Source of the DNA: Lentzea alba
Lineage (GTDB): Bacteria > Actinomycetota > Actinomycetes > Mycobacteriales > Pseudonocardiaceae
Reading direction: 5' to 3'
DNA: 64,000 bases
Assembly (NCBI RefSeq): GCF_011067745.1
Contig: NZ_JAAMPJ010000003.1
Coordinates: forward strand, 310,001 to 374,000
Of the stretch, positions 48,949 to 64,000 are shown piece after piece. Position 1 is the stretch's first letter. Every line of letters starts with the position of its first letter. The notes beneath the pieces were generated by a model. It was not told the origin of the DNA and ran no database searches. It saw nothing but the letters and a program-made list of their open reading frames with translations. The translations under genes were made by a program, and so were the position numbers.

Positions 48949-50328
48949 ATGCGGCGTACGAAGGTGTTCGGGTTGCTGGCGGTGTGCGGACTGCTGGCGG
49001 GCTGTTTGGGGCAGACGCAAGAGGGTGATCAGGCGCAGAACGCCGACGCCAAGGAGATCACGCTGACGATCGTCGCGAACGCGGCGGCGGGCGGGAAGAA
49101 CGCCCGCGGGGCGAACTGGCTGCAGAACTGGGTGATCCCGAGGTTCACCGAACTGCAGAAGGCCAAGGGCGTCACCGCGACGATCAAGTTCGAGCAGAAC
49201 GGCGCCGGCGACGAGGACTTCAAGACCAAGGTCGCGCTGGACCTCAAGACCGGTGGTGGCGGCGACATCATCGAGATCGACGGCATCTGGCTCGGCGAGT
49301 TCGCGCAGGCCGGGCAGATCAAGCCGCTGAACGACGTGGTCGGCAACACCGACTGGGACGGCTGGAACCAGATCCCCAAGGCCGTGCAGGGCCTCGGCGA
49401 GTTCGACGGCAAGCGCTACGGCGTGCCGATGGGCACCGACGGGCGTGTGCTGTTCTTCAACAAGAAGCTGTTCGCGCAGGCCGGGTTGCCCGCGGACTGG
49501 CAGCCGCGCAGCTGGCAGGACGTGCTGGACGCGGGTGCCCGGTTGAAGGCGCTGCCCGGTGTCACGCCGATCCAGCTCAACGCCGGCACCGCGATGGGCG
49601 AGGCCACCACCATGCAGGGCGTGCTGCCCCTGCTCGCCGGCGCCGGCAAGCCCGTCTACGAGAACGGGAAGTGGCAAGGGGACTCGGCCCAGCTGAAGGA
49701 CGTTCTGGGGCTGTACCAGAAGGTCTACGGCGGCGGGCTCGGCGATCCGGTGCTGCAGCAGGAGGCCAAGGGACGCGACCGGTCGTTCACGCTGTTCGGC
49801 GAGAACAAGATCGGCATTCTGCTGGAGAGCGACTACTTCTGGCGTTCGGTCGTAGAACCCCGCAACGGCGTGGCGAAGATGGCCGACCGCGACACCGCTG
49901 TCGGCTGGGCGCTGGTTCCCGCGAAGCAGGCCAAGGCGGGGGTGGGCGGACAGGACTTCGTGAGCATGTCCGGCGGCGGTGTGCGGGTGATCAACCCGAA
50001 CACGAAGTACCCGAGGCAGGCGTGGGAGTTCATGCAGTTCCTGAACTCCGCGGAGGCCGTGAAGGAGTCGCTGGCGGGTGCCGCGCAGCTCACCCAGCGG
50101 CAGGACGTCAACGACGAGGTGCTCAAGGGCGACCCGATGCTGACGTTCATCTCGGAGAAGGTCCTGCCGATCACCCGTTACCGGCCGGGGCTCGCCGACT
50201 ACCCGAAGGTGTCGGCGGCGCTGCAGCAGGCGACCGCGGACGTGGTGGCGGGCAAGAGCCCGGACGACGCCGCGAAGGCCTACCGCGACGCGCTGGTGAA
50301 GGCGGTCGGTGAGGGGAACGTTGGCTAG
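48949..50328 (+). CDS. Sugar ABC transporter substrate-binding lipoprotein (family 1)
   Basis: 459 residues from ATG 48949 (GGGGAG 7 bases upstream). Lipobox LLAGC (Cys-19) and mature two-lobe fold with IIEIDGIWLGEFAQAGQIKP, GVPMGTDGRVLFFNKKLF and AWEFMQFLNSAEAVKESLAG, typical of CUT1 sugar-binding proteins. It delivers a carbohydrate to the two permeases and the ATPase that follow without gaps. The ligand is unknown. No LacI palindrome was seen upstream. Confidence 0.92.
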   Translation: MRRTKVFGLLAVCGLLAGCLGQTQEGDQAQNADAKEITLTIVANAAAGGKNARGANWLQNWVIPRFTELQKAKGVTATIKFEQNGAGDEDFKTKVALDLKTGGGGDIIEIDGIWLGEFAQAGQIKPLNDVVGNTDWDGWNQIPKAVQGLGEFDGKRYGVPMGTDGRVLFFNKKLFAQAGLPADWQPRSWQDVLDAGARLKALPGVTPIQLNAGTAMGEATTMQGVLPLLAGAGKPVYENGKWQGDSAQLKDVLGLYQKVYGGGLGDPVLQQEAKGRDRSFTLFGENKIGILLESDYFWRSVVEPRNGVAKMADRDTAVGWALVPAKQAKAGVGGQDFVSMSGGGVRVINPNTKYPRQAWEFMQFLNSAEAVKESLAGAAQLTQRQDVNDEVLKGDPMLTFISEKVLPITRYRPGLADYPKVSAALQQATADVVAGKSPDDAAKAYRDALVKAVGEGNVG

Positions 50329-51199
50329 CTCCCTGGACAGCTCCGGGTTGGGCGTCCGGCGCGCGGTCGGGTTCGTCGCGCCGGCACTGGTGCTGATCGG
50401 GGTCTTCCTGGTCTTCCCGGCGCTCTGGACGCTCTACATCGGGATCACGAACTACCAGCTCACCGGACCCGCGGCGGCCAACCCGCGGGTCGTCGGGCTG
50501 GACAACGTCGTCGAGGCCGTGCGCGACCCGTTGTTCACGAACTCGGTGTGGCTCACGGCGTTGTTCGTGCTGGGCTCGGCGGTGATCGGGCAGAACGTGC
50601 TGGGGTTCGGGCTGGCGTGGCTGTTGCGCGCGGTCCGGCCGTGGCTGCGCCGGACCGTCGAGGGCCTGGTGCTGCTGTCGTGGATCCTGCCGGGCACGGT
50701 CGTGGCGTACCTGTGGTTCGCGGTGCTGAGCCGCGACACGGGCACGCTGGGGTTGCTGCTCGGCTCGCCGGAGACCGCGTGGCTGGTGCAGTACCCGATG
50801 ACCAGCCTGATCATCTTCAACGTGTGGCGCGGCACGGCGTTCTCGATGCTGCTCTACACCTCCGCGCTGGCCGCGGTGCCGCCGTCGCAGCTGGAGACCG
50901 CGCGGCTGGTGGGTGCGTCGGGGTGGCAGACCGTGCGGGACGTGGTGTTCCCGCACATCCGCGGGCACGTGCTGACCAACACGTTGCTGATCAGCCTGTG
51001 GACGGCCAACGACTTCACGCCGTTCCTGCTCACCGCGGGCGGGCCGAACCACCAGTCCGAGGTGTTGCCGGTGCTGATCTACCGGCAGGCGCTGGAGAGC
51101 GGGCAGCTCGGGTACGCGTCCGCGATGTCGATCCTGTTGCTGCTGGGCAACCTGGCGATCGCCCTGGTGTACCTGAGGTTGCTGCGGAGGCGGGCATGA
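50309..51199 (+). CDS. Sugar ABC transporter permease 1 (MalF type)
   Basis: 296 residues; GTG 50309 overlaps the binding-protein gene by 20 bp, and TTG 50321 with GAGGGG before it is an alternative. Six helices. The EAA loop motif for ATPase contact is QLETARLVGASGWQTVRDVV. C-terminal NLAIALVYLRLLRRRA. It forms a heterodimer with the next permease. Confidence 0.9.
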   Translation: MRGTLASSLDSSGLGVRRAVGFVAPALVLIGVFLVFPALWTLYIGITNYQLTGPAAANPRVVGLDNVVEAVRDPLFTNSVWLTALFVLGSAVIGQNVLGFGLAWLLRAVRPWLRRTVEGLVLLSWILPGTVVAYLWFAVLSRDTGTLGLLLGSPETAWLVQYPMTSLIIFNVWRGTAFSMLLYTSALAAVPPSQLETARLVGASGWQTVRDVVFPHIRGHVLTNTLLISLWTANDFTPFLLTAGGPNHQSEVLPVLIYRQALESGQLGYASAMSILLLLGNLAIALVYLRLLRRRA

Positions 51200-52017
51200 G
51201 TCCTCTGTGGATGGTGCGGCGGATCGGCTTCTACGTGCTGATCACGCTGGTGCTGGCGTTCTTCGCGGTGCCGATGCTGTGGCTGGCCTCGGCGCCGTTC
51301 GACTCGAAGCCGGGTCTCGGGTTGCGGTGGCCGGACTGGACGTTCTCGAACGTGGTCGCGACCTTCGAGCATCCCTATGCGCTGACGTCGTTGGTGAACT
51401 CGTTGGTGCTGTGCGTGGTCGCGACGGTGGTGACGACGGTGCTCGCGGCACTGGCGGCCTATGCGTTGTCGCGGGTGCGGATTCCCGGCCGGGATCTGTT
51501 GCTGTACCTGCTGTTGCTGTTGTCGTCGGTGGTGACCGGCACGGCTGCGATGGTGCCGATCTTCGTGATGATGCTGCAGCTCGGCCTGATCAACTCGCAG
51601 TTCGGGACGGCGCTGGTGATCGCGGGCGGCATGTTGCCCGCGGCGATCTTCATCCTGAAGGACTTCATGGACGCCGTGCCGCGCTCGTACGAGGAGTCGG
51701 CGCGGGTGTTCGGCGCCTCACCGCGCCAGGTGCTGAGCCACGTCGTGCTGCCGGTCGCCCGGCCCGGTGTCGCGACGATCTTCGTGTGGGCGTTCGTCAA
51801 CGCCTGGGGCAACTTCCTGCTGCCGTTCCTGCTGCTGCGCGACGTCGGCCAGCAGCCGGCGGCGGTGCTGCTGCGCACCCTGTACGACGAGGGCGGCAGC
51901 GCCAACCTGACGGTGATCCCGGTGTTCTCGCTGCTGTACTCGATCCCGGTGGTCGTGCTGTACCTGTTCGTGAGCAAGCGGTACGGGTTCCGATTCCACG
52001 GAGGCATCAAGAGCTGA
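51196..52017 (+). CDS. Sugar ABC transporter permease 2 (MalG type)
   Basis: 273 residues from ATG 51196, overlapping the previous stop. Six helices and the EAA motif in SYEESARVFGASPRQVLSHV. The start is FYVLITLVLAFFAVPMLWLA. Coupled by TGATG to the ATPase gene. Confidence 0.92.
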   Translation: MSPLWMVRRIGFYVLITLVLAFFAVPMLWLASAPFDSKPGLGLRWPDWTFSNVVATFEHPYALTSLVNSLVLCVVATVVTTVLAALAAYALSRVRIPGRDLLLYLLLLLSSVVTGTAAMVPIFVMMLQLGLINSQFGTALVIAGGMLPAAIFILKDFMDAVPRSYEESARVFGASPRQVLSHVVLPVARPGVATIFVWAFVNAWGNFLLPFLLLRDVGQQPAAVLLRTLYDEGGSANLTVIPVFSLLYSIPVVVLYLFVSKRYGFRFHGGIKS

Positions 52018-53000
52018 TGGCGGGCATCACTGTCGAGGGTCTGTCGACCGTCTACCCCAACGGGGTGCGGGCGGTGGACGAACTGGACCTCGAGATCGTC
52101 GACGGCGAGTTGTTCGCCCTGCTCGGCCCTTCCGGCTGTGGCAAAACCACTCTGCTGCGCACGATCGCCGGGCTGGAGGGCGCTTCCGAGGGCGCGGTGT
52201 CGATCGGGGCGCGGGACGTGACGCGGATGCAGCCCGGTGATCGCCGGGTCGCGATGGTGTTCCAGGACTACGCGTTGTTCCCGCACATGACGGTGTCGGA
52301 GAACATCGCCTATCCGCTGCGAGTGCGCGGGGTTCCGAAGTCCGTGCAACAGGAGACCGCGGTGCGGACCGCCAATGGCTTGAGTCTCGGTGCGTTGCTG
52401 GATCGGCGCCCCGGACAGCTTTCCGGTGGGCAGCAACAACGGGCGGCGCTGGCTCGTGCGGTGGCCGCGTCCGCCGAGGTCCTGCTGCTGGACGAACCTC
52501 TGTCCAACCTGGACGCCCGACTGCGGCTGGAGGCGCGGACCTTCCTGAAGAAGCTGCAGCGAGAACTCGCTTTGACGACGGTGTTCGTGACGCACGACCA
52601 GGCCGAGGCGCTGGCACTGGCCGATCGGATCGCGGTGATGGACTCCGGCCGGATCCGGCAGCTCGGCACCCCGCGCGAGGTGTTCCAACGACCTGCGGAC
52701 ACGTTCGTCGCGAACTTCATCGGATCGACGCCGATGAACCTGGTACCGCGCGGGGACGTCATCGTCGGCGTTCGACCCGAGTACCTGGTGCCCGCTTCCG
52801 AAGGTTTGTTCACCGGATCGGTGTCCATTGTGGAGAATCTCGGCGTCACGTCGCTGGTGACGCTCGACTGCGGCGAGGACCAGATCGGCTACGTCGTGCC
52901 CGAGGACGACGAGCCCGAAATCGGCGTGACCGTGACCGTGGACGCCCCGCCCGCACGCGTTCTGCGCTATGACAAGGAGACCGGCCTACTCGTGAGGTGA
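52017..53000 (+). CDS. Sugar ABC transporter ATPase (UgpC/MalK-like)
   Basis: 327 residues. Walker A GPSGCGKTT, Q-loop VFQDYALFPHM, signature LSGGQQQRAALARA, Walker B LLLDEPLSNLD, then the H-loop VFVTHDQAE. The C-terminal 90 residues are a short TOBE-type regulatory domain (VGVRPEYLVPASEG). In actinobacteria many sugar operons lack an ATPase and share MsiK; here a dedicated one is encoded. Confidence 0.92.
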   Translation: MAGITVEGLSTVYPNGVRAVDELDLEIVDGELFALLGPSGCGKTTLLRTIAGLEGASEGAVSIGARDVTRMQPGDRRVAMVFQDYALFPHMTVSENIAYPLRVRGVPKSVQQETAVRTANGLSLGALLDRRPGQLSGGQQQRAALARAVAASAEVLLLDEPLSNLDARLRLEARTFLKKLQRELALTTVFVTHDQAEALALADRIAVMDSGRIRQLGTPREVFQRPADTFVANFIGSTPMNLVPRGDVIVGVRPEYLVPASEGLFTGSVSIVENLGVTSLVTLDCGEDQIGYVVPEDDEPEIGVTVTVDAPPARVLRYDKETGLLVR

Positions 53001-53004
53001 CGCG

Positions 53005-53691
53005 ATGTTCCAGACCGACGGCTACGAGACGCGTGCCAGTGTGCTCGCCCCCGCGAAGTTCGAGGCGCTGGCGCGGCACTTCGAGGCCAAGCTCGCGGCC
53101 CTGCCGGAAGACCAGCGGCCCGAGCACATGGACGTGCCGCACCTGACCGACCCGGCGCTGTTCGAGTGGCTGCTGGACCCGGACGTGCTGGACCTCGTCG
53201 AGTCGCTGATCGGCCCGGACATCGCGTTGTTCTCGTCGCACTTCATCTGCAAACCCGCCGGTGACGGCAAACCCGTGCCCTGGCACCAGGACGCGCACTT
53301 CTGGCGCGACACCATCGCACCGGCGGGCGACGCGATCACCGTCTGGCTCGCCATCGACCCGTCCACCGTCGAGAACGGCTGCCTGCGGGTGATTCCCGGC
53401 AGCCACCTGGCGCCCGTCTCACATCGCGGCAACGACGACTCGTTCTTCAACCAGGAGACGGAGGTCGACGAGGCGCGGGCGGTCGACGTGGAACTGCAGC
53501 GCGGCGCGTGCAGCATCCACTCGGCCATGCTGGTGCACGGCAGTCCGCCCAATCGCAGCAAGCAGCGGCGCTGCGGTTACACCATGCGGTACATGCCGAC
53601 AACCGTCAGGTTCCTGAAGTCGGGCGATCATCGGATCTATCTCGCGCGCGGCCGCGATCACGCGGGCAACGTCTACGCCCCGGTGCCCTGA
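53005..53691 (+). CDS. Phytanoyl-CoA dioxygenase-family Fe(II)/2-oxoglutarate enzyme
   Basis: 228 residues, starting four bases after the ATPase stop. The iron triad is His and Asp in PWHQDAHFW and distal His in LVHGSPPNRS. Arg in QRRCGYTMRY is placed to bind 2-oxoglutarate. It is shorter than average PhyH proteins but complete. Within a sugar-import operon it may hydroxylate or demethylate the imported compound. An oxidative step on a modified sugar or polyol is inferred. Confidence 0.88.
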   Translation: MFQTDGYETRASVLAPAKFEALARHFEAKLAALPEDQRPEHMDVPHLTDPALFEWLLDPDVLDLVESLIGPDIALFSSHFICKPAGDGKPVPWHQDAHFWRDTIAPAGDAITVWLAIDPSTVENGCLRVIPGSHLAPVSHRGNDDSFFNQETEVDEARAVDVELQRGACSIHSAMLVHGSPPNRSKQRRCGYTMRYMPTTVRFLKSGDHRIYLARGRDHAGNVYAPVP

Positions 53692-53717: not shown

Positions 53718-53746
53718 GTCCACCTGCCTTGACCGGTAGGTGGACC
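53718..53746 (+). terminator. Terminator-like hairpin after the sugar operon
   Basis: GGTCCACCT (53718-53726) pairs with AGGTGGACC (53738-53746), starting 27 bp after the dioxygenase stop. A further GGTCCACC at 53703-53710 could pair alternatively. No U tract. It separates the operon from the next unit. Confidence 0.55.
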
Positions 53747-53760
53747 GGACATAGCGTACG

Positions 53761-53774
53761 GGAAAGCGCTTTCC
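53761..53774. promoter_or_regulatory. LacI-type operator 1
   Basis: Perfect palindrome GGAAAGCGCTTTCC, 16 bp before GTG 53790. Identical to the site at 59487 and one base from that at 56490. The central CG with flanking A/T-rich arms is the LacI/GalR-family form. Confidence 0.82.
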
Positions 53775-53789
53775 GACGGAGGGAGCTTC

Positions 53790-54611
53790 GTGAAACCGGT
53801 TTCGGGGGACCGTTGGCGCGGCGTTGTGGAGCGAACGTGGCGTCCCGCAGCGTTGTTGGCCACCTGTCTGGCGATCTGGCACCTCATCACCGTCAGCGGC
53901 CTGGTCGAGGCCTATCTGGTGCCGTCGCCGAGCAAGACCTTCCAGCTGCTCGTCGACAAGTGGTCCTACCTCTGGGGCCACACCTGGGTGACGACCTACG
54001 AGACGATCCTGGGCTTCGTCATCGCCGGCATCCTCGGCGTGCTCGTCGCCGTCGCCATGGTCTACTCGCGGACGATCGAGAGCACGGCGTACCCGCTGCT
54101 GCTGTTCGCCCAGGTCATCCCCAAGATCGCGATCGCGCCGCTGTTCGTGGTGTGGCTCGGTTTCGGCTTCGAGCCCAAGGTCGTCGTGGCCGTGCTGATG
54201 GCGTTCTTCCCGGTCGTCATCTCCACCGTCACCGGTCTCAAGTCGGTCGACACCGAGATGCTCGAACTCAGCGCCACGATGGGCGGTGGCCCGATCAAGA
54301 CGTTCGTGAAGATCCGCTTTCCCGCCGCGCTGCCGCACCTGTTCGCCGGCCTCAAGGTCGCCGTGACGCTCGCCGTCACCGGTGCCGTGGTCGGTGAGTT
54401 CGTCGGTTCCAACGAGGGTCTCGGCTACGTGATCCTGCAGGCCAACGGCAACATGGACACGCCGATGCTGTTCGCAGGGCTGATCGTCATCTCGGTGGTC
54501 GGCATCCTCCTCTTCCTCCTGCTCGACCTCGCCGAACAGCTGATGCTGCCGTGGCACTCCAGCAGGCGTGGCGCCGCCGTCACAACCCTTCTCGCGAAAG
54601 GTGGGACATGA
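53790..54611 (+). CDS. ABC importer permease, SsuC/TauC type
   Basis: 273 residues, start GTG with GGAGGGAG seven bases upstream. Six helices and the EAA-type loop ELSATMGGGPIKTFVKIRFP. The N-terminus and SPSKTFQLLVDKW match permeases of nitrate/sulfonate/thiamine-precursor (NMT1-type) importers. First gene of a three-gene importer controlled by LacI operator 1. Confidence 0.9.
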   Translation: MKPVSGDRWRGVVERTWRPAALLATCLAIWHLITVSGLVEAYLVPSPSKTFQLLVDKWSYLWGHTWVTTYETILGFVIAGILGVLVAVAMVYSRTIESTAYPLLLFAQVIPKIAIAPLFVVWLGFGFEPKVVVAVLMAFFPVVISTVTGLKSVDTEMLELSATMGGGPIKTFVKIRFPAALPHLFAGLKVAVTLAVTGAVVGEFVGSNEGLGYVILQANGNMDTPMLFAGLIVISVVGILLFLLLDLAEQLMLPWHSSRRGAAVTTLLAKGGT

Positions 54612-55615
54612 AGAAACTGCTCGCAGGCCTTCTCCCCGCGATGCTGGTGGTTGCCGCCTGCGGAGGCGGTGGCGGCGGTACGACAGCATCCGGTGGTGAG
54701 GTCAAGGACGTCACGCTCACCCTCAACTGGTACCCGTACGGCGAGCACGCGCCGTTCTACTACGGGGTCAAGCAGGGCATCTTCGAGAAGCACGGCATCA
54801 AGCTCAAGATCCAGGCGGGCCAGGGTTCCGGCAAGACCGTCACCGCGACCGGCGCGGGGCAGACGGACTTCGGCTGGGCCGACACGTCCGCGCTCGCCAC
54901 GGCCGTCGAGCAGGGCGTGCCGGTCAAGAGCGTCGGGGTGTTCCTGCAGACCACGCCGGCGTCCGTGCAGTTCTTCTCGGAGAAGAACATCAAGAAGCCC
55001 GCGGACCTCAAGGGCAAGTCGGTGGCGACGACCGCGGGGGACGCGTTGACGAAGACGTTCCCGGCGTTTCTCAAGCAGAACGGCATGCAGGACTCCGACG
55101 TCTCGATCCAGAACATCGACCCGGCGGGCAAGATGGCCGCGGTCATCTCCGGGCGGACCGACGTGCTGCTGGGCTTCGCGTCCGACCAGGGGCCGACGAT
55201 CAAGGAGAAGTCCGGCAAGGACGTCGGCTACCTGCGGTTCTCCGAGTTCGGGTTGAACTACTTCAGCAACGGGCTGCTCACCAGCAAAACCATGCTGCAG
55301 AAGGATCCCGAGCTGGTGAAGAAGATGGTCGCGGCCACTCAGGAGGCGTGGGCGGAGGCCGAGAAGGCGCCGGACGCCGCGGCCGAGTCGATGAAGGGCG
55401 CCGCCGAGCAGCTGCCGTCGCCGACGGTCGTGCTGGAGCAGTTCAAGACGACGCTGACGTTGCTGCACACCGATGCGACGAAGGGCAAGGCGCCGGGCGT
55501 CAACACGGTCGACGACTGGAAGAAGACCATCGACACCTTCCAGAAGACCGGCATCATCAAGCAAGCTGCCGAGCCCTCCGCCTACTGGGAAGAAAGCGTT
55601 GCCCCGAAGGGATGA
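54608..55615 (+). CDS. NMT1/ThiY-like ABC substrate-binding lipoprotein
   Basis: 335 residues. Lipobox VAAC (Cys-18), then a Gly run. NWYPYGEHAPFYYGVKQGIF is the typical start of NMT1/ThiY/SsuA-like binding proteins, with GSGKTVTATGAGQTDFGWAD lining the ligand cleft. Known ligands for the fold include aliphatic sulfonates, nitrate and pyrimidines. Start ATG overlaps the permease stop. The LacI operator implies a sugar-linked inducer, which is unusual for this binding-protein class. Confidence 0.88.
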   Translation: MKKLLAGLLPAMLVVAACGGGGGGTTASGGEVKDVTLTLNWYPYGEHAPFYYGVKQGIFEKHGIKLKIQAGQGSGKTVTATGAGQTDFGWADTSALATAVEQGVPVKSVGVFLQTTPASVQFFSEKNIKKPADLKGKSVATTAGDALTKTFPAFLKQNGMQDSDVSIQNIDPAGKMAAVISGRTDVLLGFASDQGPTIKEKSGKDVGYLRFSEFGLNYFSNGLLTSKTMLQKDPELVKKMVAATQEAWAEAEKAPDAAAESMKGAAEQLPSPTVVLEQFKTTLTLLHTDATKGKAPGVNTVDDWKKTIDTFQKTGIIKQAAEPSAYWEESVAPKG

Positions 55616-56436
55616 GCGCAGCGGGAATGAGCACAGTAGGGATGAGCGTGACTCTGGGAACCACCACCTCCGCCGTCGCGATCGACGACGTCTCCGTGCG
55701 CTTCCAGTCGAAGCGCACGGAGGTGACGGCGATCGGGCAAGTCTCGCTCGACGTCGCACCGGGCGAGTTCGTGTCCATCGTCGGCCCGTCCGGTTGCGGC
55801 AAGTCGACGTTGCTGAAGCTCGTGTCCGGGTTGTTGAAGCCGTCCTCGGGGTCGGTGACGTTGCTGGGGGAGGAGGTGCGCGGCCCGCGGCACGACATCG
55901 GGTTCGTGTTCCAGCGGGCGGCGTTGCTGGAGTGGCGGTCGGCCAGGAAGAACATCCTGTTGCAAGCCGAGATGCGGGGCATGAACGCGGCTGAGGCGGG
56001 CAAGCGCGCCGACGAGCTGATCGAGATGACCGGGCTGGCGGGGTTCGAGAACGCCCTGCCGCACGAGTTGTCCGGTGGCATGCAGCAGCGGGTGGCGTTG
56101 TGCCGCGCGCTGCTGCATCAGCCGCGCGTGCTGCTGATGGACGAACCGTTCGGCGCGCTCGACGCGTTGACGCGGGAGCAGATGAACGTCGAGCTGCACC
56201 GGGTGTGGCGGGAGACCGGCACGACGGTGCTGCTGGTGACGCACTCGATCGCGGAGTCGGTGTACCTGGCGAACCGGGTGATCGTGCTGACGCAACGGCC
56301 GGCGGTGGTCAAGGAGGTCATCGAAGTTGACTTGCCGGCGGAGCGCGACTACTCCGCGACGATGGCGAGGGCCGAGTTCGCCGCGGCGACGGCGCACATC
56401 AGAGACTTGCTGGGGGCCGTGACAGGACATGACTGA
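55612..56436 (+). CDS. ABC importer ATPase, SsuB/TauB type
   Basis: 274 residues. Walker A GPSGCGKST, Q-loop FVFQRAALLEWR, signature LSGGMQQRVALCRA, Walker B LLMDEPFGALDALT, H-loop LVTHSIAES. The first 30 bases repeat a unit ending GGGATGAGC or GGAATGAGC three times, giving starts at 55612, 55627 and 55642 in the same frame. Which start is used is not clear. Confidence 0.92.
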   Translation: MSAAGMSTVGMSVTLGTTTSAVAIDDVSVRFQSKRTEVTAIGQVSLDVAPGEFVSIVGPSGCGKSTLLKLVSGLLKPSSGSVTLLGEEVRGPRHDIGFVFQRAALLEWRSARKNILLQAEMRGMNAAEAGKRADELIEMTGLAGFENALPHELSGGMQQRVALCRALLHQPRVLLMDEPFGALDALTREQMNVELHRVWRETGTTVLLVTHSIAESVYLANRVIVLTQRPAVVKEVIEVDLPAERDYSATMARAEFAAATAHIRDLLGAVTGHD

Positions 56437-56489
56437 TCCGGTCTTGTGAGCGGGGACACCCGTGGGTAGTCTCGGGTGAGTCGCCGCGT

Positions 56490-56503
56490 GGTAAGCGCTT
56501 TCC
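56490..56503. promoter_or_regulatory. LacI-type operator 2
   Basis: GGTAAGCGCTTTCC, one base from the perfect palindromes at 53761 and 59487. It lies 26 bp upstream of ATG 56530. Confidence 0.78.
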
Positions 56504-56529
56504 CAAGCCGATCCACGAGGTGATGTGCG

Positions 56530-59436
56530 ATGTCCGGACGATCGCTCTCGGTCCTTGCCGTGCTGGCCGTGGTGGCCGCCACCCTGGTGCCCCAGGCGGC
56601 GGCCCAGCCCGGTCCCGTCTCCGATCCGCTTCCCACACCCGCCCCGTCCGGCGTCGGGGTGAAGCTGCAGGAGATCGCGCGGCTGCCGCAGTCGTCGACC
56701 ACGCCGGCCGCCGGTGACAGCCGGCTCAAGCAGTACAACCGGGTCAACTACCTGGGCGAGATTCCGGACGGTTCCGGCAGGTTCTTCGTGCCGGACATGA
56801 ACGGCAAGCTGTACACGCTGAACCGCGACGGCAGCGGGCAGCGCGCCTACCTCGACGTGCGCGCGACGATCGGCGGGAACTTCCACAACCACCAGGGGCT
56901 CGGCAGCGGGTTCGGGTTCGTGGCGTTCCACCCGCAGTTCGCGACCAACGGTAAGTTCTACACCGCGCACACCGAGGCGAAGGACGCGCTGAAGAACCGC
57001 AAGCCGGATCTTCCGTCGTCGTCGAACGCGGTGGTGCACGGCGTGATCACCGAGTGGACGGCGACGAACCCGAAAGCCGCGACGTTCGCGGGCAGCCGGC
57101 GGGAGTTGTTGCGCATCGGGTTCGAGATGTACCTGCACGGCTTCCAGGAGATCGGCTTCGGCCCGGACGGCCTGTTGTACCTGGCCGTGGGGGACGGCGG
57201 CATCGGTTACCGCTCGGACGTGCCGCAGGACGTGAAGGTGCCGCAGGGCAAGATCCTGCGCATCGATCCGGCGGGATCCAACAGCGGCAACAGGAAGTAC
57301 GGGATCCCGCCGTCGAACCCGTTCCTGGGCAGGCCGGGCGCGCTGGCCGAGCTGTACGCGATCGGTGTGCGCGACCCCTACCGGTTCAGCTGGGACAACG
57401 GCAGGATGTTCCTGGGGCACATCGGTGAGAAGGTCGTCGAGTCGGTCTACGAGGTCAAGCCGGGCGCGAATCTCGGCTGGGGCCAACGGGAAGGCCACCT
57501 GACCTACCGCCGCAACGATCCCAAGTGCCAGCTCTACCCGTTGCCCGTCGACGACGCGAAGTTCGGTTACACCTATCCGGTCGCGGGCTTCGACCACAAC
57601 CGGCCCAACGGTGGTTGTGGGGACAGCGGCAACGCGTTGATCGGCGGCTTCGTGTACCGCGGCACGGCGATTCCGGCGTTGCAGGGCAAGTACGTCTACG
57701 GCGAGGGCGTGAAGGGACTGCTGTACTACGCCGAAGAGAAGGACATGCGGGCCGGCGCGCCGATCGCGAAGACGTTCGAGCTCGCGGTGTACGACTCGGC
57801 GGGCAGGCGCACGACGATGAAGTCGTTGACCGGCAAGAGCCGTGTCGACCTGCGGCTGGGCACGGACGCGGCCGGTGAGCTCTACGTGCTGGCCAAGGCG
57901 AACGGCAAGATCTGGAAGGTCACCGGGACGATCGGGACCTTGGAGGCCTGCGAGTCCGGCAGCGAGGTCGTCAGCGGGGTCAACGCCGCCGCTGACTGGA
58001 AGCCCGTCACGGCGTCGCGCTGGCGGTTCCCCGGCAACGAGGTCGTGCTCTCCAAGGCTGGGTCCGCGAGGCCCGGTCCGCGGCGGCCAAACGAGTACGC
58101 GGTCGTCACCAAGGGGCCGGCGTTCGGCAACGTGACGGTCGACGCGCAGGTGCGGCTGGACACGCCGGTCTCGCAGAAGGACCGGGACGTGGTGATCGTG
58201 TTCGGCCACCAGTCGGACACGCGTTTCTACTACGTGCATCTGTCGTCGGACAACAAGATCTACCCGCACAACGGGATCTTCCTCGTCGACAACGCCGATC
58301 GGCTGCGCATCGACGACCAGTGGAACGGCTCGATCGGTGCCGCGCCCGCCATCACGGACATGAAGTGGCACCGGGTGCGCGTCACGCATTGCGTCGACAC
58401 GGGCGTGATCGCGGTTTACGTCGACGGTTCCTCACAACCGTTGATGACGGCCACGAACACCGTGCTGAAGTCCGGACGGGTGGGGTTCGGTTCGTTCGAC
58501 AACATCGGCCGGATCGCGGACCTCAGGATCACCGGGAAAGCGGCACCCACCGTGCTGTCCTCGCCGGACGACGTCTCTCCCGGCATCGCCTCGGCGGTCG
58601 TGAACCACTACGACTTCGAGCACCCGGTCGCCGGTGATCCGAAGAAGGAGGACGACATCGGCCGGGCCGACGCGCGCACGCCGATCTCGTTGGTCAACGG
58701 TGGTGCGGCGATGCGCACGGCGGACGGCGCGTTCCCCGGATCGACGACATCGTTGCAGCTCAAGCAGGTGCGGCCGAACAACAAGAGCAACGACGACTGG
58801 AAGGCCGGCGTTTACAACTCCGGCGGTGTCGCGTCGATGAAGGCGTTCAGCAAGGCGCGCGGCCTGTCGATCATGACGTGGGTGAAGGTCACCGGTGAGG
58901 CACCCGCGCGCAACTCGAACTCGTCCGGGACCGGTGACTTCTACGGTGCGATCGGGTTCGCGGGGATTCTCGCGGGAGATTCCGACGGTCACGCCGCGCG
59001 GGCGTTGCTGGAGACGGAGAACCACGACGGCGCGATGCGGCTGATCGCACTCGGCCGCCGGGTGGACGGCAGCGACAAGCAGTACTGGGTGTCCAGCGCA
59101 GACTGGAAAACGCTGATACCAGCTGGCAAATGGGTGTTTCTCGCGGGCACGTTCGACTTCGACAACGGCACGATCGGCCTGTACGTCGACGGCAAGCCCG
59201 TACCGGGTTCCTATGCGGTCAAGGGTGATCCGTGGAAGATCATCGGCGCTCCCGAACCCGATCTGACGTCCGCGGCGAACCCGCGCGGGATCAAGATCGG
59301 TGGCAGTCATCCGCAGAACAACCGCGAGGTCAACGCGTGCAACTGCCGGTTGGACAGCCTGATGCTGCTGGACCGCGCGGTGACGGCGGACGAGGTGCGC
59401 GGGCAGTACGAGTGGGTCGCCAAGGGGCGGAGGTGA
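56530..59436 (+). CDS. Secreted PQQ-type sugar dehydrogenase-like propeller with two lectin-like domains
   Basis: 968 residues. Signal peptide to about 26 (PQAAAQP). Residues 45-475 form a GSDH-like six-bladed propeller with FHNHQGLGSGFGFVAFHPQF, YLHGFQEIGFGPDGLLYLAV-GDGG and GVRDPYRFSWD. Residues 480-675 are a concanavalin-like domain (HLSSDNKIYPHNGIFLVDNA, VGFGSFDNIG), similar to DUF1080-type or family-16 carbohydrate-binding domains. Residues 690-968 are LamG-like (YDFEHPV, DSLMLLDRAVTADEVRGQYE). It likely binds a polysaccharide and oxidises sugars at its surface. ATG 56530 has GAGGTGA upstream. Confidence 0.88.
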   Translation: MSGRSLSVLAVLAVVAATLVPQAAAQPGPVSDPLPTPAPSGVGVKLQEIARLPQSSTTPAAGDSRLKQYNRVNYLGEIPDGSGRFFVPDMNGKLYTLNRDGSGQRAYLDVRATIGGNFHNHQGLGSGFGFVAFHPQFATNGKFYTAHTEAKDALKNRKPDLPSSSNAVVHGVITEWTATNPKAATFAGSRRELLRIGFEMYLHGFQEIGFGPDGLLYLAVGDGGIGYRSDVPQDVKVPQGKILRIDPAGSNSGNRKYGIPPSNPFLGRPGALAELYAIGVRDPYRFSWDNGRMFLGHIGEKVVESVYEVKPGANLGWGQREGHLTYRRNDPKCQLYPLPVDDAKFGYTYPVAGFDHNRPNGGCGDSGNALIGGFVYRGTAIPALQGKYVYGEGVKGLLYYAEEKDMRAGAPIAKTFELAVYDSAGRRTTMKSLTGKSRVDLRLGTDAAGELYVLAKANGKIWKVTGTIGTLEACESGSEVVSGVNAAADWKPVTASRWRFPGNEVVLSKAGSARPGPRRPNEYAVVTKGPAFGNVTVDAQVRLDTPVSQKDRDVVIVFGHQSDTRFYYVHLSSDNKIYPHNGIFLVDNADRLRIDDQWNGSIGAAPAITDMKWHRVRVTHCVDTGVIAVYVDGSSQPLMTATNTVLKSGRVGFGSFDNIGRIADLRITGKAAPTVLSSPDDVSPGIASAVVNHYDFEHPVAGDPKKEDDIGRADARTPISLVNGGAAMRTADGAFPGSTTSLQLKQVRPNNKSNDDWKAGVYNSGGVASMKAFSKARGLSIMTWVKVTGEAPARNSNSSGTGDFYGAIGFAGILAGDSDGHAARALLETENHDGAMRLIALGRRVDGSDKQYWVSSADWKTLIPAGKWVFLAGTFDFDNGTIGLYVDGKPVPGSYAVKGDPWKIIGAPEPDLTSAANPRGIKIGGSHPQNNREVNACNCRLDSLMLLDRAVTADEVRGQYEWVAKGRR

Positions 59437-59486
59437 GGGGTTGTAACCACCCTATTAGCTAGGTAGATTTCGGGTGCCGCTGCATT

Positions 59487-59500
59487 GGAAAGCGCTTTCC
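59487..59500. promoter_or_regulatory. LacI-type operator 3
   Basis: GGAAAGCGCTTTCC, identical to operator 1, 41 bp upstream of ATG 59542. TTGGAAAGCGCTTTCC is a slightly longer match to the LacI-family pattern. Confidence 0.82.
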
Positions 59501-59541: not shown

Positions 59542-61602
59542 ATGTACAGACGGTTCTCTCGTTTGGCTGTCACAACATTCGTGCTATCAGCGTTGTTCGT
59601 GCCCATCGCATCGGCACAGTCCGATGCGCCGATCGCCGATCCGTTGCCGACGCCGGGTGCGTCCGGCATCGGCCTCGAACTGACCGAGGTCGCGCAGCTG
59701 CCGAAGTCGGAACCGGTTCCGCCACCGACGGACGCACGCCTGCGCCGGTACAACAGGATCAACTACCTCGGCGAAATTCCGGACGGGTCGGGCCGGCTGT
59801 TCGTGCCGGACATGAACGGCAAGCTCTACCTGCTGGACAACGGGGTTCAGCACGCGTTCCTGGATCTGGGCGCGGCCGTCGGCCCCGACTTCCACAACCA
59901 CCGCGGCCTGGGCAGTGGCTTCGGGTTCGTGGCGTTCCACCCGAACTTCAAGCGCAACGGCAAGTTCTACACCGTCCACACCGAAACCGGTTCCGCGCTC
60001 ACGACGAAGAAGCCGGACTGGTCTTCGCCGGTCGACAACGTGGTCCACGGCGTGATCACCGAGTGGACCGCGGCCGACCCGCGCGCCGACCTGTTCTCCG
60101 GCACGCACCGCGAGATCATGCGCGTCGGCTACGCGTCGTACATCCACGGCTTCCAGGAGATCGGCTTCAACCCGAACGCGCGCCGGTGGAACGAGGACTA
60201 CGGCCTGCTGTACCTCGCGGCGGGCGACGGCGGCATCGGCGTCTCGACGACGTTGCCGCAGGACTTGGCGCTGCCGCAGGGAAAGATCCTGCGCATCGAC
60301 CCTGATGGCCGCAACAGCGGCAACGGCCAGTACGGCATCCCGCGCACGAACCCGTTCGTGCACAAGGAAGGCGCGCTCGGCGAGATCTACGCGTACGGCA
60401 TGCGCGACCCGTACCGCTTCAGCTGGGACTCCGGCGGCTCGCACAAGATGTTCCTCGGCCACATCGGCGAGAAGGCCGTCGACTCGGTCTACGAGGTCCG
60501 CAAGGGCGCCAACCTGGGCTGGAGCGAACGCGAGGGCATCTGGTCGTACCGCCGCGGTGACCCGTCGTGCGGCGTGTTCCCGCTGCCCGCCGACGACGCG
60601 AAGTACGGCTTCACCTATCCCGTCACCGCGTTCGACCACAACCGGCTCTCTTCCCAACGGCCGTGCGCGGACAGCGGCAACGCATTGATGGGCGGCTTCG
60701 TCTACCGCGGTTCGAAGATCCCTTCGTTGCGCGGCAAGTACATCTACGGCGAAGGCGTGAAGGGCCTGATCTACTACGCCGAGGAACGCGAGATGCGTGC
60801 CGGCAAGCCGATGGCCACCACCCGCGAGATGATGGTGTACGCCAACGGCCGGCTGACGACGATGAAGGCTCTGGTCAACGACCCCAACCGGGTCGACCTG
60901 CGCTTCGGGCGGGACGCCGAGGGTGAGCTCTACGTGCTGGCCAAGGCGAACGGCAAGATCTGGAAGGTGACGGGCGCGCGCACCTTCGCCTCCTGCCGCT
61001 CCGGCCACGACTTCGTGAGCGGGGCGACCTCGGCCCGGTCGTGGGAGCCCGTGACGCCCGAGCTGTGGCAGTTCCCCGGCCGTGAAGTCGTGCTGGCCCA
61101 ACCTGGTGTCGCCCGTCCCGGCCCGCGCCGGCCGTTCGAGTACGCCGTGCTGAAGAAGGGCCCGGCGTTCGCGTCGGTGCAGGTGGACGCGCGGGTGCGG
61201 CTGGACACGCCGGTGGCGGAGTCGAACCGGGACGTGATCATCGTGTTCGGGTACAGGTCCGACACCGAGTTCTACTACGCGCATCTGTCGTCGGACAACA
61301 AGATCTATCCGCACAACGGCATCTTCGTGGTCAACAACGCGGACCGGCTTCGGCTCGACCACCAATGGGACGCCACGCGGTCCGTCGGTGCCCCTCCGGC
61401 GGTGTCGGACACGGCCTGGCATCGCGTGCGGGTCAGGCATTGCGCGGACTCGGGCGAGATCGCGGTGTACGTGGACGGTTCGCCGTACCCGTTGATGACG
61501 GCCGTGGACAAGACCTTCTCGTCGGGCCGCGTCGGGTTCGGCTCCTTCGACAACATCGGCCGGCTGCGCGACCTGCGCGTGCAGGGCAAGGGAGTGCGGT
61601 GA
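59542..61602 (+). CDS. Secreted PQQ-type sugar dehydrogenase-like propeller with one lectin-like domain
   Basis: 686 residues from ATG 59542 (MYRRFSRLAVTTF), signal peptide ending near ASAQSDA. It is a paralogue of 56530-59436 across its whole length: propeller with FHNHRGLGSGFGFVAFHPNF, YIHGFQEIGFNPNARRWNED (a short insert) and GMRDPYRFSWD, then the concanavalin-like domain with HLSSDNKIYPHNGIFVVNNA. It stops exactly where the long paralogue goes into its LamG domain, and the LamG part is the next gene, joined by TGATGA. Confidence 0.88.
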   Translation: MYRRFSRLAVTTFVLSALFVPIASAQSDAPIADPLPTPGASGIGLELTEVAQLPKSEPVPPPTDARLRRYNRINYLGEIPDGSGRLFVPDMNGKLYLLDNGVQHAFLDLGAAVGPDFHNHRGLGSGFGFVAFHPNFKRNGKFYTVHTETGSALTTKKPDWSSPVDNVVHGVITEWTAADPRADLFSGTHREIMRVGYASYIHGFQEIGFNPNARRWNEDYGLLYLAAGDGGIGVSTTLPQDLALPQGKILRIDPDGRNSGNGQYGIPRTNPFVHKEGALGEIYAYGMRDPYRFSWDSGGSHKMFLGHIGEKAVDSVYEVRKGANLGWSEREGIWSYRRGDPSCGVFPLPADDAKYGFTYPVTAFDHNRLSSQRPCADSGNALMGGFVYRGSKIPSLRGKYIYGEGVKGLIYYAEEREMRAGKPMATTREMMVYANGRLTTMKALVNDPNRVDLRFGRDAEGELYVLAKANGKIWKVTGARTFASCRSGHDFVSGATSARSWEPVTPELWQFPGREVVLAQPGVARPGPRRPFEYAVLKKGPAFASVQVDARVRLDTPVAESNRDVIIVFGYRSDTEFYYAHLSSDNKIYPHNGIFVVNNADRLRLDHQWDATRSVGAPPAVSDTAWHRVRVRHCADSGEIAVYVDGSPYPLMTAVDKTFSSGRVGFGSFDNIGRLRDLRVQGKGVR

Positions 61603-62531
61603 TGAAACGACTGTTCGTCCTCGGTGTGACCGGGTTGCTGTGCCTCGGCCTCGCTGCCCCTGCCCAGGCCACGTTCGGCACCGTGCTGCCCACCCTGTCC
61701 CGCAACCTGGTGTCGTACTACGACTTCGAACACCCGGTGCGCGCCAACTTGGCGTTAGAACAGGACAGCGGCCGCTCCGGCACGCAGCTGTCCCTGATCA
61801 ACGGCGGCGCCGACATGCGCGTCCGGGACGGCGCCTTCCGGCGGAGCCGCAACTCGGTGCAGCTCAAGCAGATCAACCCGACGGTCGCGGGCAACGACGA
61901 CTGGAAGGCGGGGCTGTACAGCGAAACCGGTGTGCCGTCGCTGAAGGCGTTCAACGGCGTGCGGCAGACGTCGATCATGGGCTGGGTGAAGATGACGGGC
62001 CAGAACCCTGCCCCGAACTCCAACTCGGCCAACCCCGCCGACTTCTACGGCGCGATCGGCCTGGCGGGCGTGCTGTCCGGTGACTCCAACGGTCACGCGG
62101 TGCGCGCATTGCTGGAGCTGATCCAGGTCGACGGCGAACTGAAGCTGGTCGCGCTGGCCCGGCGGATCGACGGAGGCGAGTCGCAAACGTTCGCGGCCAC
62201 CGAGGACTGGCAGAAGTTGTTGCCGCATAACGAGTGGGTGTTCCTGGCGGCCACGTTCGACTTCGACACCGGCGCGATGGTGCTGTACCGCAACGGCAAG
62301 CCGCTGGCCGGCAAGTACGTCGTGGCCGGTGACCCGTGGAAGCTCGAAGGTGAACCGGAGCCGGACCTGGCGTCGGCGACCGATCCGCGTGGGATCAAGA
62401 TCGGCGGCAGCTACCCGCAGAACAACCGCGAGGGCAACGCCTGCAACTGCCGGATGGACAGCCTGATGTTCCTCGACCGCGTCGTGAAGCCGTGGGAGGT
62501 GCACCTGCAGTACCTCTGGATGAAGGGCTGA
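61602..62531 (+). CDS. Secreted LamG-domain protein (split third domain of the paralogue)
   Basis: 309 residues. It has its own signal peptide (LGVTGLLCLGLAAPAQA), so it is exported separately. YYDFEHPVRANLALEQDSGR, WKAGLYSETGVPSLKAFNG and DSLMFLDRVVKPWEVHLQYL match the C-terminal LamG domain of the 968-residue protein. Its ATG overlaps the previous stop. It probably works with the propeller protein outside the cell as a carbohydrate-binding partner. Confidence 0.88.
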   Translation: MKRLFVLGVTGLLCLGLAAPAQATFGTVLPTLSRNLVSYYDFEHPVRANLALEQDSGRSGTQLSLINGGADMRVRDGAFRRSRNSVQLKQINPTVAGNDDWKAGLYSETGVPSLKAFNGVRQTSIMGWVKMTGQNPAPNSNSANPADFYGAIGLAGVLSGDSNGHAVRALLELIQVDGELKLVALARRIDGGESQTFAATEDWQKLLPHNEWVFLAATFDFDTGAMVLYRNGKPLAGKYVVAGDPWKLEGEPEPDLASATDPRGIKIGGSYPQNNREGNACNCRMDSLMFLDRVVKPWEVHLQYLWMKG

Positions 62532-62796: not shown

Positions 62797-64000
62797 GTGA
62801 ATGTTGGAGTGCCGCCGGAGCGCGGTACCACGACCAACAAGGTGGACGGCGCCGGCAACGTCGTGCAGGCCGGCGAGATCCGCGACGTGCACTTCCACGG
62901 TGTGCCGGACGGCGGGTCGCAGCCGGGTCTGGTGTCGACGATCGCACCGACGGATCTGCTGCCGGGCAAGGTGTTCGGCCGCGAACAGCTGGTGACCCGG
63001 CTGGTCGAAGTGACCCAGCGCGCGGACGGCACGCGGGTCGTCCTGCACGGCACGGGCGGCAGCGGCAAGACGGCGGTGGCGCTCGCGCTGGCGGACCGGC
63101 TCGACCGCGAGTTCCCGCGCACCCGCGTCTGGTGGGTCGACGGGTCGTCGGAGTACAGCCTGTCGGCCGGGTTGCGCGAGGTCGTCTACGACGCGGATCC
63201 GCACCATCGCGTCGAGGAGGTCATGCGGGCGTGGCGCGGTGAGGGATCGGCGCCGAACCTGTTGAAGAGGGTGCTGGCGGAGATCCCCGGACGCTGGACG
63301 CTGATCATCGACGGCGCCGACGACCAGCGCGTGCTGGCGCAGTGGCGGTCGGCGCTGCAGCACGACACCGGCACGGTCGTCCTGACGACCCGGAACGGCA
63401 AGGCGAAGGAGTGGAGCCGCTGCGCCGAGGTGCACCAGGTGAGCACCCTGCACGCGGATGCCGCGGTCGAGATGCTGCGGACGCTGGCTCCCGGCTCCGG
63501 CACGGCGGAGCAGGCCCGCGAACTGGCCTGTGCGCTGGGGTACCTGCCGCTCGCGCTCCGCCTGGCCGGGAGCTACCTCAACACGGTGCCCACGCTGCCC
63601 ACCACCGGCGGACTGGCGTTGCCGCAGAGCTTCGAGCAGTACCGGCTGGTGTTCCACGAACGGTTCGTGGAGCTCGACCAGTTGCACGAGATCGGCAGCG
63701 GCCTGGCCGAGCGCGAGCTGTTGTCGCGGACGTGGGAGTTGTCGCTCGACCTGCTGGCGGATCTCGGCATGCCGTGGGCTCGCCCGTTGCTGCGCTGGCT
63801 GTCGTGTTTCGAGCAGGCCCCGATTCCGTGCGACCTGGCGAACTCCGAGATCCTGACCCGCTCGACGTTGTTCAAGGGCATCACGGGCATGGACCTGATC
63901 CACGCTTTCGTGTTCCTGACGAACTTCGGCCTGGTCGAACAGGTTTCGGTGTGGGGCATGCGGTCCTCGTCGGTCACCACGAAGTGCTGGGTGCTGCACC
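62797..64000 (+). CDS. NB-ARC STAND ATPase with RHIM-like N-terminal motif (NLR-like), 3-prime truncated by the window
   Basis: 401 residues are visible from GTG 62797 (CGGAG upstream). Residues 14-35 hold NKVDGAGNVVQAGEIRDVHF; VQAG (23-26) matches the VQxG core of RHIM and the related bacterial amyloid signalling motifs that precede STAND proteins. The NB-ARC module has Walker A GTGGSGKT (Lys-91), Walker B WTLIIDGADD (Asp-172), VLTTRN, and LGYLPLALRLAG (GLPL-like motif). A winged-helix region follows. The C-terminal sensor, usually TPR, lies off the window. Such proteins trigger cell death or immunity after ligand sensing. No effector gene is visible. Confidence 0.85.
   Translation, partial: MNVGVPPERGTTTNKVDGAGNVVQAGEIRDVHFHGVPDGGSQPGLVSTIAPTDLLPGKVFGREQLVTRLVEVTQRADGTRVVLHGTGGSGKTAVALALADRLDREFPRTRVWWVDGSSEYSLSAGLREVVYDADPHHRVEEVMRAWRGEGSAPNLLKRVLAEIPGRWTLIIDGADDQRVLAQWRSALQHDTGTVVLTTRNGKAKEWSRCAEVHQVSTLHADAAVEMLRTLAPGSGTAEQARELACALGYLPLALRLAGSYLNTVPTLPTTGGLALPQSFEQYRLVFHERFVELDQLHEIGSGLAERELLSRTWELSLDLLADLGMPWARPLLRWLSCFEQAPIPCDLANSEILTRSTLFKGITGMDLIHAFVFLTNFGLVEQVSVWGMRSSSVTTKCWVLH

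Follow-up and report, generated by a model that had tools for sequence, protein, structure and literature searches.

LacI-type operator palindromes link an NMT1-class importer and secreted GSDH/LamG proteins in a candidate regulon of Lentzea alba and other actinobacteria

We analysed a stretch of 64,000 nucleotides from Lentzea alba (contig NZ_JAAMPJ010000003.1, positions 310,001 to 374,000 of the forward strand; hereafter the window), in which three transcription units follow one another: a three-gene ATP-binding cassette (ABC) importer of the NMT1/sulfonate class, a gene for a secreted GSDH propeller fused to a laminin-G-like region (GSDH1-LamG), and a gene pair encoding a second GSDH protein and a separate laminin-G-like protein (GSDH2 and LamG2). 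The original prediction had placed one LacI-type palindrome before each unit, and the sites were recovered as described: GGAAAGCGCTTTCC stands exactly before the importer and before GSDH2, and a variant with one mismatch, GGTAAGCGCTTTCC, before GSDH1 (Table 1). All three lie 15-41 bases upstream of the start codons. According to the promoters that we located by eye, the inferred transcription start would fall within the operator in the case of the importer and just before the operator in the cases of GSDH1 and GSDH2, so that binding of a LacI protein would block transcription. The importer and GSDH2 promoters were absent from the list returned by a consensus scanner.

Table 1. Features of the importer and GSDH/LamG units in the window (position 1 is its first letter)
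Feature	Position	Strand	Evidence and remarks
Promoter of importer unit, TTGACC-N17-TAGCGT	53729..53757	+	By eye; both boxes kept in a 21-row Lentzea upstream alignment, window included
Operator GGAAAGCGCTTTCC, exact	53761..53774	.	Precedes importer unit (start 53790); would overlap the inferred transcription start
Permease, NMT1/sulfonate-class ABC importer	53790..54611	+	PF00528 (BPD_transp_1) 2.1e-33
Lipoprotein substrate-binding protein, NMT1/SsuA class, with LTLNWYPYGEHAPFYYG	54608..55615	+	PF09084 1.9e-44; start codon picked from lipoprotein signal and overlap with permease stop
Importer ATPase	55612..56436	+	PF00005 (ABC_tran) 4.8e-34; start codon picked from overlap with binding-protein stop
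Promoter of GSDH1, TTGTGA-N17-TAGTCT	56444..56472	+	By eye, inferred
Operator variant GGTAAGCGCTTTCC, one mismatch	56490..56503	.	Precedes GSDH1-LamG (start 56530)
GSDH1, secreted GSDH propeller with C-terminal Laminin_G_3, 968 amino acids	56530..59436	+	PF07995 5.3e-21, PF13385 9.7e-13; signal peptide by eye
Promoter of GSDH2, TTGTAA-N17-TAGATT	59441..59469	+	By eye; boxes largely kept in a 22-row alignment, window included
Operator GGAAAGCGCTTTCC, exact	59487..59500	.	Precedes GSDH2 (start 59542)
GSDH2, secreted GSDH propeller with further C-terminal region, 686 amino acids	59542..61602	+	PF07995 1.9e-19
LamG2, secreted Laminin_G-like protein	61602..62531	+	Start overlaps GSDH2 stop; PF13385 4.6e-05, 24.1 bits, under the cut-off of 27.6

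The frequency of the palindrome was compared with that of control patterns. At up to three mismatches the window holds 12 matches, against a mean of 2.49 in 100 shuffled versions (largest value 7). The exact palindrome occurs at 7 places in the 10.2 Mb genome and its reversed pattern at none; with up to one mismatch allowed, the counts are 23 and 1. Two of the exact copies are those of the window; the other five comprise one between a LacI gene and a Gfo/Idh/MocA-type dehydrogenase gene (Gfo) on another contig, C3, and four elsewhere. In 21 other Lentzea regions, a site was present within 150 bases of every unit head found (20/20 for the importer, 6/6 for GSDH1 and 21/21 for GSDH2). The operator was exact at 19 of the 20 importer heads, 14-18 bases upstream of the start codon, and at 20 of the 21 GSDH2 heads, with a spacing of 20-44 bases. 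The six GSDH1 heads, with spacings of 21-28 bases, all carry the GGTAAGC-type variant GGTAAGCGCTTTCC, and this form has therefore been kept and does not reflect drift. A chance origin of the three palindromes, to which the shuffled and reversed controls and the permuted ones given below are equally opposed, is refuted by this conservation and retains a negligible probability. From their conservation, the palindromes are read as regulatory-type sites of a LacI regulon.

Scanning 24 Lentzea genomes gave 1-7 exact copies per genome and none of the reversed control in any of them. Summed over genomes, 66 of the 98 exact copies fall at three core places, namely LacI/Gfo, importer and GSDH2. Nine genomes have exactly three exact copies, all at core places; the places were listed in full for five of them (G005, G006, G011, G012 and G017, which also have 3-12 one-change copies) and combined from several scans for the other four (G001, G009, G020 and G023). 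The importer binding protein is encoded in 22 of the 24 genomes (E<=1e-60). The two that lack it, G003 and G014, are also devoid of GSDH1 and GSDH2 (only a 2.9e-5 match and none). G014 keeps a single exact copy, at LacI/Gfo; G003 carries a pair, of which the second falls within a polyketide-synthase-like open reading frame.

None of the 44 LacI-type genes of the genome lies within the window, so a regulator inside it was rejected and the search was extended genome-wide. The original prediction had called for a LacI-family gene associated with this site, and such a gene was found on contig C3 (G000:C3:184210-185226). Its product, C3 LacI, has both domains of the family (PF00356, 2.4e-15; Peripla_BP_3, 1.6e-30), and an exact operator at C3:185313 separates the gene from a divergent operon encoding Gfo, a DUF993 protein (5.9e-160) and a xylose-isomerase-like protein. 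The same even palindrome with a central CG stands before the LacI gene and its putative targets. The arrangement of LacI, exact operator and Gfo is present in 24/24 Lentzea genomes, in 22 of which DUF993 comes immediately next. We collected 11 LacI proteins from positions beside importer, Gfo, Liv-type importer or GSDH genes, one of them the ortholog from Lentzea G023; among the 44 LacI of the L. alba genome, C3 LacI is the closest to all 11. As the helices were listed, the recognition helix VSLATASR occurs in C3 LacI only among these 44, and in 10 of the 11 collected proteins. In the LacI tree, C3 LacI and the 11 proteins belong to one 14-row group (100/99; bootstrap unsettled), which also holds two paralogs, C7_111211 and C7_111626. 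These two, in spite of their place in the tree, are the less likely regulators on account of their other recognition helices (QATASR and VATASR, respectively) and of their shared promoter, where no palindrome of at least six pairs was found.

The association was then followed outside Lentzea. GSDH loci were taken as the best 80 of 477 relatives, which are not independent lineages; 62 of them (L164-L225) are from other genera. Gene borders in these loci are approximate, the gene caller having been trained on 11 window genes of which one has an out-of-frame tail, and product names are by eye unless a Pfam match is given. The exact 12-base core GAAAGCGCTTTC occurs in 32 of the 62 loci, as opposed to 0 for each of 59 permuted palindromes. 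All 39 matches fall outside called genes, 38 of them at about 300 bases or less from a called start. When only the 1.5 kb preceding GSDH is considered, 20/62 loci have the core, versus 0 for 100 permuted controls. An NMT1-class importer is present in seven of the 62 loci, from Thermomonospora (L169), Actinomadura (L168), Actinoallomurus (L180, L201, L210) and Micromonospora (L223, L224). All seven contain a LacI of the C3 kind (at least 42% identity) and six the full trio of Gfo, DUF993 and isomerase-like genes; L168 has only the Gfo gene of the trio. The core precedes both importer and GSDH in L169, L168, L180, L201 and L210. LacI, importer, the trio, GSDH, LamG and the operator core are all united in a single locus in four loci of other genera.

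The importer itself was traced by a search with its binding protein alone, which gave a match in 31 of 394 genomes of the class (a sample, L. alba included), down to 46-47% identity. Importer regions found in this way, without using GSDH, were read out of the 31 matching genomes; the 18 regions (L327 and L169 probably represent one contig) contain a LacI of the C3 kind in 13 cases, the trio in seven and GSDH in one. In four regions from another family of the same taxonomic order (f8: L335, L336, L338, L339), a changed operator, GGAATGCGCTTTCC, is found on both the importer and the Gfo sides of LacI. In another region (L341 7644-17450, family f34), genes for a secreted TIM-barrel-like protein and a 1512-amino-acid protein, ThuA-like by eye, come after the importer unit, and one-change operators precede both units.

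The composition of the unit, an NMT1 binding protein, a BPD_transp_1 permease and an ABC ATPase according to Pfam, places the importer in the NMT1/SsuA class. The motif LTLNWYPYGEHAPFYYG is common to 18 aligned binding proteins. NCBIfam gives no equivalog of ThiXYZ or SsuABC/TauABC: binding protein, permease and ATPase fall under the cut-off in every row listed (for the ATPase, the best 25 of 187 families), the closest families of the permease being SaoP, TauC and SsuC. The importer might carry a pyrimidine, a sulfonate or another non-sugar compound, its link to sugar genes being a side branch. The solved relatives of the binding protein (closest 4nmy, 4.4e-17, and 3ix1, 1e-12) include a formyl-aminopyrimidine-binding protein and THI5, and the protein matches the SsuA subfamily of NCBIfam at 9.9e-25, under cut-off. 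Yet the importer shares its loci with LacI, Gfo, DUF993 and isomerase genes in several genera, and other GSDH loci carry instead a Liv-type importer (22 of the 62) or a YtfQ-like one (1 of the 62). We consider transport of a non-sugar compound improbable.

Several observations weigh against a single regulon under C3 LacI. The gene does not adjoin the window cluster. In the L. alba genome, exact copies are also found ahead of further genes of carbohydrate type (L118, L119, L120; identified by eye) and one lies within an open reading frame (L117), while one-change copies are found at many carbohydrate-type genes and also at or inside unrelated genes. Five of the 18 importer regions are without a LacI of the C3 kind, and in the Micromonospora loci L223 has no operator at up to two mismatches and L224 only one, before LamG. 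In the tree, for which bootstrap is unsettled, the LacI proteins encoded beside the importer in other genera and in Lentzea G023 make up a separate clade (100/99), adjacent to a group of C3 LacI, the L184 protein, C7_111211 and C7_111626 (83/97). Since Lentzea G023 holds both C3-type and importer-side LacI and the window genome only the C3 type, the importer may once have been controlled by a different gene that L. alba no longer has, its role having perhaps passed to a paralog with the same operator.

A rival explanation is that several LacI paralogs share the half-site and that control of the three units is divided among them or overlaps, the variant at 56490 in particular belonging to a glycosidase regulator and GSDH1 lying outside the regulon. 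The genome has LacI paralogs in number, two of them in the tree group of C3 LacI. GGTAAGCGCTTTCC occurs at five places in the genome, four of which are at other genes, glycosidase-like by eye, and it is also present in Lentzea genomes lacking GSDH1 (G005, G017) or keeping only a remnant of it (G012). The core AAAGCGCTTT is not specific either, as the AglR motif contains it too (PMC4052901). Conversely, in four Micromonospora loci (L184, L191, L192, L198) GGTAAGCGCTTTCC stands before Gfo beside a LacI that is 55-58% identical to C3 LacI. A second Gfo-DUF993 set, found in Lentzea G004, G015 and G020 (L250, L251, L252, L264, L265), is preceded by two tandem operators, one of the GGTAAGC type; in G004 and G015 it is GGTAAGCGCTTTCC itself that neighbours an exact copy. 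The nine genomes without exact copies beyond the three core ones also argue for one regulon. The 56490 variant is the least secure operator of the set, and we regard divided control as less likely than a single regulon. The original prediction held that copies spread over unrelated genes would speak against the regulon; the L. alba genome goes some way in that direction, whereas the nine relatives do not.

Both GSDH proteins of the window belong to PF07995, with domain scores of 75.7 bits for GSDH1 and 70.6 for GSDH2 and a Pfam cut-off of 25. GSDH2 is 57-90% identical to 43 relatives, and LamG2 is 57% identical to the LamG part of GSDH1. GSDH1 is fused to LamG in the window genome and in G001, and the two are in separate frames in four other Lentzea; the gene is decaying in the genus, with fragments in G022 (L096), a short remnant in G012 (L093) and a shortened head in G008 (L091). 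Use of pyrroloquinoline quinone (PQQ) by these proteins is suggested by His202, Arg288 and Arg450, which are invariant in 44 GSDH rows, align with those of the E. coli aldose sugar dehydrogenase YliI and have what we take to be PQQ-binding roles. The genome also encodes a pqqC above cut-off, followed by pqqD-, E- and B-like genes by eye (L263 7272-12779, G000:C12). Alternatively, the GSDH proteins would be non-oxidising, secreted binding propellers like hedgehog-interacting protein that capture a polysaccharide or a glycoside together with LamG. The best solved match of the GSDH profile is indeed hedgehog-interacting protein (1.7e-17, versus 2.5e-07 for the best of the sugar dehydrogenases), which counts against oxidation; so does the Asn of an Arg-Asn pair, presumably part of the PQQ site, which is Asp in 44/44 rows; one distant relative, L105, has Asn. 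With the three invariant residues and pqqC opposing it, a purely binding role seems rather unlikely to us. Two further GSDH-like genes, resembling usual sugar dehydrogenases, adjoin the pqqC cluster at L263.

The proteins encoded divergently from C3 LacI have solved relatives, namely 4dnh for DUF993, 3oqb for the Gfo-type dehydrogenase, and 7vpf and 3ju2 for the isomerase-like protein; no paper on 4dnh was found in the open-access literature searched. DUF993 is annotated as dihydrodipicolinate synthase (DHDPS)-like in plasmid records, and Lys190, in a GVKVS-type motif, is invariant in 14 proteins from actinobacteria and proteobacteria. From DHDPS we assume that it is the Schiff-base lysine, and DUF993, judging from this residue, is probably a Schiff-base aldolase. 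Glycerate kinase (Pfam) follows the trio in Micromonospora L223 and Lentzea G015 (L265); in Lentzea G004 (L264) a glycerate-kinase-like gene, by eye, comes after Gfo and DUF993, the isomerase being absent. An enolase-superfamily (MR_MLE) gene, whose best NCBIfam match is a muconate cycloisomerase subfamily under cut-off, stands by LacI and the importer in L261 (5657-7891) and L223 (12924-15148); such a gene adjoins the importer in Lentzea G023, G019 and G009, and partially in G008. This gene content would fit a route that degrades a sugar acid to glycerate.

Directly upstream of the window cluster, at 48949-53691, lie a UgpB-type sugar ABC importer and a PhyH-family (PF05721) dioxygenase gene. 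Most of the 21 Lentzea regions have them beside the cluster, but they were rejected as members of the regulon, no operator being found before them at up to two mismatches; alignment of their upstream regions revealed no conserved palindrome by eye. At the other end, 62797-64000, the window contains the start of a large ATPase-like gene (GSGGSGKTAVALALADRL).

On the basis of comparative genomics, which is what points to co-regulation, we propose that C3 LacI acts as a repressor at GGAAAGCGCTTTCC-type operators of four transcription units: its own divergent Gfo/Idh/MocA-DUF993-xylose-isomerase-like operon, the NMT1-class importer, GSDH1-LamG and GSDH2-LamG2. LacI bound at these sites would prevent transcription until a metabolite of the pathway released it. 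Extracellularly, the secreted GSDH/LamG proteins would bind a sugar or sugar derivative and probably oxidise it, the importer would take up the product, and the dehydrogenase, the isomerase-like protein and DUF993 would degrade it inside the cell, followed in some relatives by glycerate kinase. We hold this reading as a whole, regulon and pathway, to be likely. The original prediction of a LacI regulon joining the importer to the GSDH/LamG units is thus right in outline, as the shared loci and conserved core in other genera indicate, but incomplete, the candidate regulator and the intracellular enzymes being on another contig. A broader version is possible, though we advance it tentatively: an undescribed pathway in which a sugar or glycoside undergoes extracellular oxidation by GSDH/LamG proteins, the product is too little sugar-like for sugar importers and enters through NMT1 or Liv classes depending on lineage, the DUF993 aldolase cleaves it en route to glycerate, and one LacI clade with a AAAGCGCTTT operator governs the system across actinobacteria. 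These results suggest that importers of classes usually associated with sulfonates or amino acids can be part of a LacI regulon. They place DUF993, a domain of unknown function, in a context that bears on its role, and do the same for the GSDH/LamG family and the NMT1-class importer, which are present in many actinobacterial genomes. As the regulon is small and conserved, with one leading candidate repressor, its inducer, and hence the substrate of the pathway, is open to direct tests.

The families involved are known; their combination was not found in the open-access literature, screened mostly by listing, where no description of a LacI/NMT1-importer/GSDH-LamG/DUF993 system was met. The closest counterpart of the intracellular part is a Proteobacterial module (3oqb, 4dnh, 3ju2), in which the same Gfo/Idh/MocA, DUF993 and isomerase families are clustered. 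DUF993 relatives are found on 147 plasmid records. Among five plasmid regions, the three families are near one another in three (Paracoccus, Nitratireductor, Erwinia), whereas those of Rhizobium and Janthinobacterium have DUF993 and the isomerase without Gfo; glycerate kinase is present in the Paracoccus and Erwinia regions. The Proteobacterial module differs in its TetR-type regulators (four of the five regions) and its sugar ABC, Tct- or major facilitator superfamily-type transporters, and no GSDH/LamG protein is annotated in the five regions, the plasmid annotation being incomplete. For S. meliloti, a passage of PMC12542648 gives locus tags as a list only. The importer resembles SsuABC, TauABC and ThiXYZ in being a three-gene unit with Pfam NMT1, its permease and ATPase being closest to SaoP/SaoA, taurine and sulfonate types, but it differs from them by its scores under the NCBIfam cut-offs, by LTLNWYPYGEHAPFYYG and by the LacI and sugar-type enzymes that accompany it. 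The window GSDH proteins share family PF07995 with hedgehog-interacting protein and with the PQQ aldose sugar dehydrogenases (YliI, 2ism, 3das), and retain His202, Arg288 and Arg450; compared with YliI, 2ism and 3das, they have a long extra C-terminal or LamG region and Asp in place of the Asn that we assign to the PQQ site, and are closer in sequence to hedgehog-interacting protein. Finally, the candidate regulon has the features of local LacI-family sugar regulons, as surveyed in PMC4052901: an even palindrome with a central CG, an autoregulated LacI divergent from a catabolic operon, and sites near start codons. Relative to the regulons surveyed there, it stands apart by its NMT1/sulfonate-class importer, its two secreted GSDH/LamG units, its DUF993 trio and its distribution over two contigs in Lentzea.

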